From a virus: 64,000 nucleotides of DNA. Position numbers and translations under genes: made by a program. Where the stretch lies: positions 124,001-188,000 of IMG/VR virus record IMGVR_UViG_3300017917_000952. One strand, written 5' to 3'. The notes under the pieces are model-generated. The model saw only the letters and a list, made by a program, of their open reading frames with translations. It made no database searches and had not been told where the DNA came from. Position 1 is the first letter of the stretch; the number at the start of each line of letters is the position of its first letter. This document shows positions 2,703 to 5,462 of this stretch, piece by piece.

Positions 2703-3126
2703 AGCTCAGCGCAGGCTAACTTCGTGCGCCCGAAATCCTTGGTGATGTCGCAGGGTAAGGAAATCTCTCGCCGTTCAAGAGTACTCAGCAAGTATCCTTA
2801 ACAGGACCACGATCGCGAAATGCCGCGGTTTTGCTGTTTGAATAGAGTGAAATAAGGCCCAAGGATGGAGAATTAACAATAACTCCACGGTTCTTATACA
2901 AGATAGCGTTTGTATAATGACCCGCCGTTGTGAAGACTGGGATGGAGGTACCGGACAACCGCCTCTGTTAAATACCCTAACGCTGTGTGACTGCGATACT
3001 CAGATAATGTCAAACTTTGCCCTTAACGGGCTTAGTGTGACCGTTCTATCTAGATAATATTTAAAACACTTCGTGTTGAAAAATGCTTCGAGTCGAAGAC
3101 GAAGAAGAACACGAACGCAGTTCGTG
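2703..3126 (+). ncRNA. non-coding stretch with many inverted repeats, candidate structured RNA
   Basis: About 420 bases with no credible ORF. Stems seen: GCGCA/TGCGC (2709-2713 with 2725-2729), TGGAG/CTCCA (2866-2870 with 2883-2887), an 8-bp TTATACAA/TTGTATAA (2894-2901 with 2910-2917), GAGGT/GCCTC (2945-2949 with 2961-2965, one wobble), GCCC/GGGC (3019-3031), AACAC/GTGTT (3065-3077), CTTCG/CGAAG (3086-3098) and a 7-bp CACGAAC/GTTCGTG (3110-3126). The base composition is visibly more GC-rich than neighbouring genes. A TATAAT sequence lies at 2913-2918 but has no good -35. It is not recognisably tRNA, tmRNA or RNase P RNA. Strand is inferred from the surrounding genes only. Confidence 0.4.
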
Positions 3127-3134
3127 TATAAATA
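3127..3134 (+). promoter_or_regulatory. T4-type late promoter, perfect TATAAATA
   Basis: Exact match to the T4 late consensus, directly abutting a 7-bp inverted repeat that ends at 3126. By T4 spacing the transcript would start near 3140, leaving a 19-nt leader for the gene at 3159. Confidence 0.8.
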
Positions 3135-3158
3135 ACACAACATATTTCTGGAAAAAAA

Positions 3159-4745
3159 ATGAATCTTTCCTCTTTATTATCGAAAATTGACTCTCTTGAG
3201 AATAGCCCAAGACAAAGTATCTTTGAGAGTATTGGCCAAGGAGATCAATATTTCCGTACATGGGAACGAGACATACATCCTGTACTATGTGAAGTAGCAA
3301 TGAGCCCTGAACAAATTCAACAACTATTCAAAGGAGTTGAAGCAGGTGCAGGAAGAAGTACCTTAGGTAAAGGCCTTGATGCAGTTAAAGGCGCTACAGA
3401 TAAAGTTAGCGATGCATGGTTTAACAAATTCGGTGGAATGCTACAGAACAGTACACCAGTACAGGCTTTCGATCAGAAATATGAAGATATTAAGAGCAAG
3501 ATTGCTGCAAAGCATCCAGACCTTGCAGCAAAATTAGCCAAGTACGGTGAATTTGCTAAAGAACATCCAAACTGGCACAAATTTCTATTAGCGATTGCAG
3601 GATCAGTTGCTTCTGCTGTTGGCGTTGCTGCCGCAGGAGGTGTTGGAGCAGGTGCTCTAGCAATAGGTACAGGTGTTGGTGTTGCAACAGGTATTCTTAA
3701 TATTGCAGATAGATTATTACAAGGACAAAAGGCGTCAACTGCTATCGGTCGTGGAGCAACTACTGGAGCAATAGCAGGCGTTACTGCCGGTGTACTTTCA
3801 AAAGTTGGATCATGGCTAGGCTCCATGAGAGAAAAATCTATTCCGTTCGGCCCAGAGGATGCGGGCCTAGAAAGAATCAGTTGGGATGCTAAAAAGACAT
3901 TAACTGCTCCGGGCATGGAGTGGACACAACGAACACAAGGATTCCAAGCATTAGTTAAAGCAGAAGACGCTTCCGCAATTCGTGCAGCAATGAATCAAAT
4001 CAGTACCAATCCAGGAACTGGTGGTTTTGAAGAGTTACAACGACTAGGAAGAATGGTTGCTAGTAAGGATTACATAGCCAACATGCAGACTGCGGTTGAC
4101 GGAGCATTTGCCGCAGCAAAGAATAACGACAGTTTATTGCAATTCATCAATACTGTTACTCAAGGAGCAGCAGCCGCTTCCGGTGGCGCCGCTAGTGCTG
4201 CGACAGCGTCTGGTGGTCAACAGCCTAAGCCGACAGCGGAGTCATTAAGCAGAACACAGGTTAACGAACTATTTGGCATTACTGGAAATAAAGTTGATGC
4301 TGCCAAATTACAAAAGGCTTGGGTAAAAGCAGGTAGTCCTACTGACAGCGAAGAAATTGCAAAAATACTTCAAGCGGCAGGAGTCGAATCTTCAGTAATT
4401 TCGAAAGCATTTACTGATATGTCGTTACCAGAACCTACAAGTACAGCAAGTGTAGCACCTGCTAAAGACAGTGCAGCCGCACCTGACAATGCAGCGCCCG
4501 TAGATGCTACTGCACCTACAGATACTAAACCTGCAACTGCTGAGCCGGCCGCTACTGCACCTGCTGCTCAACAAAGCAAAGTTGGTGTTGGACAAATTAA
4601 TAAAATTATCCCAACACTCCGTCTTCGAGATTTGAAGAGTGTACAAAAGACAGTAGATGCGGCTCTTGCTAAACGTACAACATCTACACAACCTACTAAC
4701 GAAAGTGTAGTGTTTTACAGCAAGTTTTTAGATAAAGAAATTTAA
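3159..4745 (+). CDS. late protein of unknown function; glycine/alanine-rich helices and a C-terminal module shared with the next gene
   Basis: A 528-aa protein behind a late promoter. A long Gly/Ala-rich hydrophobic tract (about residues 146-185) could form membrane-inserting helices; the C-terminal third is Ala/Pro/Thr-rich linker. Residues 471-505 (starting QQSKVGVGQINK) and the end (NES-VVFYSKFLDKEI) are nearly repeated at the C-terminus of the next gene product. An IFE tripeptide at residues 21-23 would fit the prohead-protease LxE/IxE rule. Late expression, a membrane-active-looking segment and position beside head genes suggest an internal head or ejected protein; this is inference and no family is recognised. 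Confidence 0.75.
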   Translation: MNLSSLLSKIDSLENSPRQSIFESIGQGDQYFRTWERDIHPVLCEVAMSPEQIQQLFKGVEAGAGRSTLGKGLDAVKGATDKVSDAWFNKFGGMLQNSTPVQAFDQKYEDIKSKIAAKHPDLAAKLAKYGEFAKEHPNWHKFLLAIAGSVASAVGVAAAGGVGAGALAIGTGVGVATGILNIADRLLQGQKASTAIGRGATTGAIAGVTAGVLSKVGSWLGSMREKSIPFGPEDAGLERISWDAKKTLTAPGMEWTQRTQGFQALVKAEDASAIRAAMNQISTNPGTGGFEELQRLGRMVASKDYIANMQTAVDGAFAAAKNNDSLLQFINTVTQGAAAASGGAASAATASGGQQPKPTAESLSRTQVNELFGITGNKVDAAKLQKAWVKAGSPTDSEEIAKILQAAGVESSVISKAFTDMSLPEPTSTASVAPAKDSAAAPDNAAPVDATAPTDTKPATAEPAATAPAAQQSKVGVGQINKIIPTLRLRDLKSVQKTVDAALAKRTTSTQPTNESVVFYSKFLDKEI

Positions 4746-4754
4746 GGAACAGAT

Positions 4755-5462
4755 ATGAAAATTAATGAACTGTTAGTTGAGAACGAACAACTTGACGAAC
4801 TAAATCTAAAAGGTCTTGGAACTGGCCTTGGTAAAGCAATCGGCGGCGCTGCTGGTGGAGTAGTTCAAGGAGCAAAAAATATCTGGTCCGGAATGAAACA
4901 AGGATATGCAGGCGCTCAACAAGCAATGGCTCCGGATGATGCAGGTACTACACCCGCAGCAACTAGCGGTACAGCACCTGCTGCAACTGCTCCTGCGGCT
5001 GCTCCGGCAGATACAACTGGTGGTTCTGGTGAAGTAGCAGCATCTAACATACTTGCAAGGGCAAAACAAGGTACAACACAAGATCCTAATGCTGCTCCTG
5101 CTGCGGCGCCTGCAACACCAGCACCTGCGGCTACTCAAGCACCTGCGGCTACTCAAGCAGGGCAAGAACCTGCTGCTGCTCCTGCTGCTGATCAGCAGAG
5201 CAAAGTTGGTGTTGGACAGATTAACAAATTAATTCCTACACTAAGAACAAGAGATCTTCAAAGTGTTAAGAAAACTGTAGATGCTACTATTGCTAAGAAA
5301 ACTGCTGCTAAACCTGCTGCACCTGCGGCCGCACCGGCAGCAAGTCCAAGCCAGGCTGAGATTGATGCCGACCGTGCAAGACTAATGGGTCCAGACAATG
5401 GTGGCGCAAACGAAAGTAAAGTAGTTAAGTTTAATAGTAAGTTCTTAGGAATGGATATTTAA
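4755..5462 (+). CDS. late protein of unknown function, paralogous C-terminal module, CTS-like N-terminus
   Basis: A 235-aa protein starting 9 nt after the previous gene, with a fair ribosome site (AAGGAACAG). The N-terminus, MKINELLVE, resembles the short capsid-targeting leaders of T4 internal proteins, with LVE at residues 7-9 matching the gp21 cleavage rule (L/I-x-E). A glycine-rich helix follows, then a very long Ala/Pro/Thr/Gln linker, then the module SKVGVGQINK...TVDATIAKK (residues 147-181) and an end KVVKFNSKFLGMDI shared with the upstream protein. Low complexity prevents a family call. A packaged internal head protein is the favoured but unproven reading. Confidence 0.75.
   Translation: MKINELLVENEQLDELNLKGLGTGLGKAIGGAAGGVVQGAKNIWSGMKQGYAGAQQAMAPDDAGTTPAATSGTAPAATAPAAAPADTTGGSGEVAASNILARAKQGTTQDPNAAPAAAPATPAPAATQAPAATQAGQEPAAAPAADQQSKVGVGQINKLIPTLRTRDLQSVKKTVDATIAKKTAAKPAAPAAAPAASPSQAEIDADRARLMGPDNGGANESKVVKFNSKFLGMDI

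Follow-up and report, generated by a model that had tools for sequence, protein, structure and literature searches.

On comparative grounds, the longest noncoding gap in a 64,000-nt stretch of viral DNA (the window; bases 124001–188000 of the 206,751-base IMG/VR record IMGVR_UViG_3300017917_000952) is the gene of a structured RNA. The virus was T4-like and came from fresh water. The RNA was conserved, had a defined fold and was of + strand sense, and its presence was independent of the downstream gene. It carried two copies of one seven-base word (the twin heptamers) and was shared by phages and by integrative islands of Methylococcales. We put the chances at about even that it is a highly structured noncoding RNA (ncRNA) acting in trans, the twin words of which would address one partner and which the islands would use against or with phages.

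Conservation and fold of the RNA

The cmscan search gave a single Rfam match in the whole window, to RF01718 (Polynucleobacter-1) at 2704–2839 on the + strand. The score was 74.2 bits (gathering cut-off 37 bits) and the model was covered completely (1–141 of 141). The cut-off was also passed by 14 of 20 related loci. An Rfam/Infernal scan had been proposed in a preliminary description of this DNA, which saw no match to known RNAs by eye. That was correct for tRNA, tmRNA and RNase P RNA (ARAGORN and Rfam detected no tRNA or tmRNA in the gap), but it missed RF01718.

Polynucleobacter-1 was reported by Weinberg et al. in 2010 as a motif of unknown function from Burkholderiales and from fresh water or estuary, and was tabulated as probably an RNA and probably cis-regulatory ('cis-reg: y') (PMC2864571). 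Here it matched the first 136 nt of the RNA, the model spanning just the 5' third. As judged from the homologues, the motif is the 5' domain of a full RNA with a conserved core of about 360 nt (2703–3060, + strand), which was delimited by an nhmmer profile of 140 homologues and by covariation. When six homologous loci were scanned permissively, no Rfam family matched the 3' 210 nt.

The homologues were reached in two ways, through the neighbouring GIY-YIG protein and, independently, through a pattern in the RNA sequence. Most IMG/VR relatives of the protein had the same noncoding sequence directly 3' of their genes. The DNA pattern, taken from the 3' part of the RNA, retrieved at least 120 stretches from IMG/VR without reference to the protein, and 99 of 104 loci found in this way had the GIY-YIG gene 5' of the RNA, mostly within about 110 nt. 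The nhmmer profile comprised 140 distinct full-length viral homologues from IMG/VR with a mean identity of 68%. Eight loci (L010, L011, L025, L073, L074, L076, L079 and L081) presented the 3' domain only, their 5' domain not being recognised by the Polynucleobacter-1 profile, and these would carry a second 5' type. In cultured phages, blastn gave no match to the RNA except one at chance level in Dickeya, and the GIY-YIG relatives of seven cultured phages had no adjoining RNA.

The inverted repeats noted in the preliminary description were present, but were weak evidence by themselves: the single-sequence fold had a z of -1.6, and 6 of 100 shuffled sequences were equally stable. The case was carried by covariation in the homologues, which the same description had proposed to examine. 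When column pairs were ranked by background-corrected covariation, Watson-Crick pairs came out on top, and the stems derived from them made up about 14 helices with three pseudoknots.

Pairs were counted in a separate MAFFT alignment of 65 sequences. Over the 72 pairs of the structure, 90.1% of the cells were paired, and 53 pairs had changes on both sides, a number that, as judged from this alignment, is far above chance. The covariation score was 0.417, compared with 0.172 for shuffled alignments and at most 0.09 for the slid structure, a control that flatters the structure in that it was drawn from an overlapping set of sequences. The 3' domain alone behaved similarly. It was therefore the comparative evidence, not the inverted repeats of one sequence, that identified a structured RNA, and of the candidates first named for the gap, that of a phage small RNA was borne out. 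G-U cells (987) far outnumbered A-C cells (133), and selection was therefore on the RNA of the + strand.

All helices are given for this strand. Pseudoknot 1 (2704–2729) was composed of P1 (2709–2713/2725–2729; 99.1% of cells paired, all five pairs changed on both sides) and of 2704–2707/2714–2717 (88.5% paired). P4 (2786–2791/2831–2836) and P6 (2811–2816/2825–2830) covaried within 2786–2836, with 99.5% and 99.7% of cells paired and two-sided changes in nine of the 12 pairs. In P8 (hairpin 2889–2922), the loop at 2903–2909 paired with 2980–2986 to form pseudoknot 2 (2889–2986), and the loop-distal helix of this region (helix 11) was 98.0% paired with two-sided changes in 7/7 pairs. The TATAAT seen earlier as a possible -10 box was indeed present at 2913–2918. 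It belonged to the 3' strand of P8 and varied in sequence among the homologues, and was therefore no conserved promoter.

In pseudoknot 3 (2927–2978), P9 (2927–2931/2955–2959) was crossed by P10 (2938–2942/2974–2978) and P11 (2945–2949/2961–2965). These three helices (12–14) were paired in 98.1, 92.6 and 100% of cells, respectively, with two-sided changes in each. Beside this pseudoknot, alignment columns 235/257 and 236/258 (window 2943–2966) displayed covariation of a non-Watson-Crick kind and are possible tertiary contacts.

P12 (helix 15, 3015–3035), the hairpin between the two modules described below, was 90.3% paired with two-sided changes in two of its eight pairs. Three further hairpins (3065–3077, 3084–3106 and 3109–3127; together 3065–3127) were recognised in the sequence. 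Homologues had equivalents 3' of module 2, even where the next gene was convergent. The last hairpin (3109–3127) is probably the 3' end of the RNA or a terminator.

The twin heptamers

The 3' domain contained two modules on the + strand, each starting with GUGAC and ending in a heptamer. Module 1 (2987–3008) had the pattern GUGAC-N5-N-A-CUC-heptamer and module 2 (3037–3058) the pattern GUGAC-N5-N-A-UCU-heptamer. In the window both heptamers were AGATAAT (3002–3008 and 3052–3058). They were 50 nt apart, corresponding to 51 alignment columns.

Among couplings other than Watson-Crick, those between equivalent positions of the two heptamers were the strongest in the RNA. Of the 138 RNAs with both words, 136 had the same word twice, and ten types of word occurred. 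Random pairing of the heptamers would have given identity in 27.6 RNAs on average and in 41 at most. One of the two exceptions, L146, was an alignment slip, and divergent copies kept the identity (AGTTGAA in both modules of L146, ACAGAAA in both of L263).

The changes were counted on an RNA tree built without the heptamer columns. Positions 1, 2, 5 and 7 had undergone about 28, 7, 13 and 15 inferred changes, and the tips with a mismatch numbered 0, 0, 0 and 1. The bases before the heptamers stayed distinct, CUC in module 1 and UCU in module 2. Gene conversion of the module was therefore no explanation of the identity.

No other column of the RNA covaried with the heptamers as a Watson-Crick partner would. 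The partner would therefore be a nucleic acid in trans or a protein. The GIY-YIG protein was considered for this part and rejected, as its residues did not follow the heptamer changes; proteins that were 97.8% identical occurred with different heptamers. A promoter -10 box was rejected as well, since GGATGAA and ACAGAAA do not fit one and the spacing to TGTGAC was 11 nt. A GGA site of the CsrA type was discarded because the motif is broken in AGATAAT and GAATAAT.

Downstream genes, island copies and possible roles

There were 107 loci with enough 3' sequence to be scored. A co-directional gene followed the RNA within 330 nt in 70 of them and was absent from the other 37. A late promoter box like NATAAATA lay between the RNA and the gene in 50 of the 70, and in none of the 37. 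The RNA was therefore no leader.

The co-directional genes were variable in sequence. Their products usually started like MKVYEIISE or MKINELLVE, which is reminiscent of the capsid-targeting sequence (CTS) found in internal proteins of T4. A strict CTS-like pattern matched 47 of the 70 downstream neighbours and 7 of the 181 open reading frames (ORFs) of this phage. The downstream gene of the window itself (3159–4745) failed the strict pattern. The internal proteins of T4 have only a conserved CTS in common, act against host restriction and are injected (PMC3012670). The RNA neighbours likewise began in a way resembling MK.Y.II.E and then varied strongly; this likeness concerns the genes beside the RNA, not the RNA.

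A scan of genome collections placed the RNA in Methylococcales contigs as well. RF01718 was matched in 5 of 301 Methylococcales genomes and a model of the 3' part (R1) in 7 of the 301. Among 369 genomes of the class, a match was found in the centre genome alone. An integrase together with attachment at a tRNA gene, as looked for in a satellite, accompanied only part of the copies. The order was RNA, integrase and tRNA-Leu in L211; in L264 it was the 3' end of the RNA, a MazEF-like pair, an integrase and tRNA-Leu. L228 had tRNA-Cys, the RNA and an NYN-domain gene. In all six copies with enough upstream sequence (L209, L224, L225, L226, L227 and L263), a divergent upstream gene encoded a small, basic protein that began with a CTS-like sequence, and the search made in IMG/VR found no relatives of it. 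The contigs of L224, L226 and L227 were 48–229 kb long and carried chromosomal genes; for these three copies, this speaks against a phage contig that was binned wrongly.

We propose the following course of events. The RNA would be read from the + strand, either at the end of the transcript that covers gp46 and GIY-YIG or from its own promoter. Its pseudoknotted scaffold would present one 7-nt word in two single-stranded copies, spaced by about 50 nt. Both would contact the same sequence-specific partner in trans, which may be a nucleic acid, of the phage or of the host, or else a dimeric protein. With the same partner for both copies, a change in one heptamer would have to be matched in the other. 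The Methylococcales islands would carry the RNA, together with the small basic protein targeted to capsids, in order to interact with such phages, as satellites or as interference elements. We offer only tentatively, and with considerable doubt, the more specific form of this proposal, in which an RNA class bears a specificity code, a variable word of 7 nt shown twice to a partner in trans, and in which methanotroph islands have copied this RNA and the capsid-targeted proteins as a means of parasitising or blocking T4-like phages.

Several results weighed against a trans-acting RNA of this kind. Complements or copies of an RNA's own heptamer were not enriched in its flanks, complements of the modules in the phage's own genome were merely scattered matches, and no GIY-YIG residue tracked heptamer position 1. 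Recombination would inflate the change counts, the tree being made from the RNA itself, and whole-block exchange between phages could yield simultaneous switches of both heptamers. The bacterial copies were mostly on contigs of metagenome-assembled genomes; L225 and L227 were near-identical and hence not independent, and L226 was divergent or decayed.

Other explanations were weighed on the same data. One sequence-specific ribonuclease might cut the RNA at both heptamers and thereby free the segment of about 50 nt with the P12 hairpin, the word following the specificity of the enzyme. Identical words around one hairpin, at fixed spacing and changing jointly, would fit this, as would the absence of a heptamer partner within the RNA, and the repeats of type III antitoxin RNAs, by analogy, likewise share one cut site. 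On the other hand, the three bases before the words constantly differed, no candidate enzyme was found and the adjoining GIY-YIG protein did not track the heptamer; we regarded this explanation as rather unlikely. Packaging of the RNA in virions with the capsid-targeted basic proteins, and its delivery into the next cell together with the DNA, would agree with the CTS-like genes beside the RNA in phages (strict pattern) and in bacteria and with the injection of the T4 proteins. It was judged unlikely, as many phage loci (37/107) had no co-directional gene and L228 had a tRNA instead.

A role as cis-regulatory leader of the gene that follows, also among the functions first suggested for the gap, would agree with the published rating of Polynucleobacter-1 and with the co-directional gene in most loci. 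That rating was inferred from the position of the motif upstream of genes (PMC2864571); here the late promoter came after the RNA in 50 of 70 loci and over a third of all loci lacked the gene, and a leader appeared very improbable. A DNA site for replication origin, packaging or recombination that forms hairpins incidentally was considered quite improbable; replication and recombination had been among the first suggestions. Islands would carry such a site to have a helper phage replicate or package them, and both the occurrence in phages and integrative islands and the direct repeats of the heptamer would be compatible with such a site, but the excess of G-U over A-C and the interlocked pseudoknots reflect selection on the + strand RNA. 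In its bridge-RNA version the site would need an IS110-type transposase, and PF02371 was absent from the entire virus record while the controls matched. We gave almost no credence to a homing or self-splicing relic tied to the GIY-YIG gene, another early suggestion, despite the close linkage of that gene to the RNA. No intron family exceeded the Rfam cut-offs in the window and the neighbouring reading frames were complete, not interrupted. Islands had the RNA without GIY-YIG, the seven cultured phages had GIY-YIG without the RNA, and the heptamers changed independently of GIY-YIG residues.

A trans-acting RNA may be compared with known systems. The whole Polynucleobacter-1 model was matched above its cut-off and the freshwater origin agreed, but the full RNA was about 2.5 times longer, its additional pseudoknots and twin heptamers belonged to no Rfam family, and most copies were in T4-like phages, the others in Methylococcales islands, and were not leaders. 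GOLLD and ROOL are large ornate RNAs of phages and prophages with multiple pseudoknots and unknown function (PMC12286853), and resemble the present RNA as large pseudoknotted RNAs encoded by phages. They measure 659 to more than 800 nt as compared with about 360 nt here, and they are associated with tRNA arrays, not internal-protein-like genes. Their models were not matched when this stretch of the window and six homologous loci were scanned permissively. Homo-oligomeric RNA cages are a trait of those RNAs. In the pair of phage ICP1 and its satellite PLE, the phage has an abundant ncRNA and the satellite has one as well (PMC7567579). The phages and islands here shared one RNA family, and the likeness is an analogy, not evidence.

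In the literature searched, which left most subscription journals outside, we found no description that would correspond to the full fold, the twin heptamers or the phage and island distribution. What was an orphan motif of 141 bases is extended to the whole gene of a phage RNA, which has a defined fold, is widespread in fresh water and has counterparts in mobile islands of bacteria. The coupling of the twin heptamers is testable, and its roughly sixty inferred changes with almost no intermediates point to a partner. That the RNA occurs together with capsid-targeted proteins, both in phages and in islands, suggests that it takes part in conflicts between phages and satellites in methane-consuming bacteria. 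If true, the specificity-code reading would add to such conflicts an RNA-based recognition system without a described counterpart.

Genes around the RNA in the phage and in the islands

The gap, first described as a region of 420 bases, was real; it spanned 456 nt (2703–3158) and was the largest in the window. It was the sole internal gap of at least 200 nt when ORFs of 60 or more amino acids were considered, and the longest of four with a minimum of 80. The coding density, said to be near 100%, was 96–97% by a greedy ORF set. The GC content of the gap (0.46–0.47) was above that of GIY-YIG (0.33), gp46 (0.39) and the next gene (0.44), in agreement with the earlier statement.

Directly 5' of the RNA and 3' of a gp46/SbcC-like gene was the gene of a SegE-type GIY-YIG nuclease (2271–2702, + strand; PF19835 SegE_GIY-YIG, E=1e-33; phrog_447). 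PHROG 447 and many phage records label relatives of this protein 'NAD synthetase', which looks like a propagated misannotation.

The late promoter noted before was of the T4 type and was located 3' of the gap sequence that forms the RNA (TATAAATA, 3127–3134, + strand) and serves the following gene. That gene (3159–4745, + strand) encoded 528 amino acids without a family match, and its N-terminus, MNLSSLLSKIDSLENSPRQSIFE, was like the CTS of T4 internal proteins. Its product and that of a 235-amino-acid gene (both within 3159–5462) had CTS-like N-termini and a common C-terminal motif, KVGVGQINK(I/L)IPTLR.RDL.SV.KTVDA, and are probably related internal virion proteins. A search for pmoC in the phage gave no match, and neither did its control.

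Defence-type genes were found near the RNA in two islands. In L227, 11874–18661 adjoining the RNA island contained a CAP12/TIR effector (PDC-S35), an MmeI-type IIG enzyme and a DEAD-box helicase, which are likely defence cargo, and L209 had a type I restriction fragment. Also near the RNA, both encoded a small protein without a Pfam match in which motifs of the type HR..GPA or GPA..Y.DG were repeated (L227, 10391–10744; L209, 1524–1934). The contig of L209 also had a group II intron fragment at 12–85 (RF00029, 50.5 bits).

Two tRNA-linked islands of one Methylococcales genome, in which the RNA was not detected, encoded CTS-like basic proteins (L239, 6521–6901; L240, 7368–7619) related to the one beside the bacterial RNA copies. 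L240 also contained an integrase and, as judged from ORF sequences, a type I-like restriction operon.
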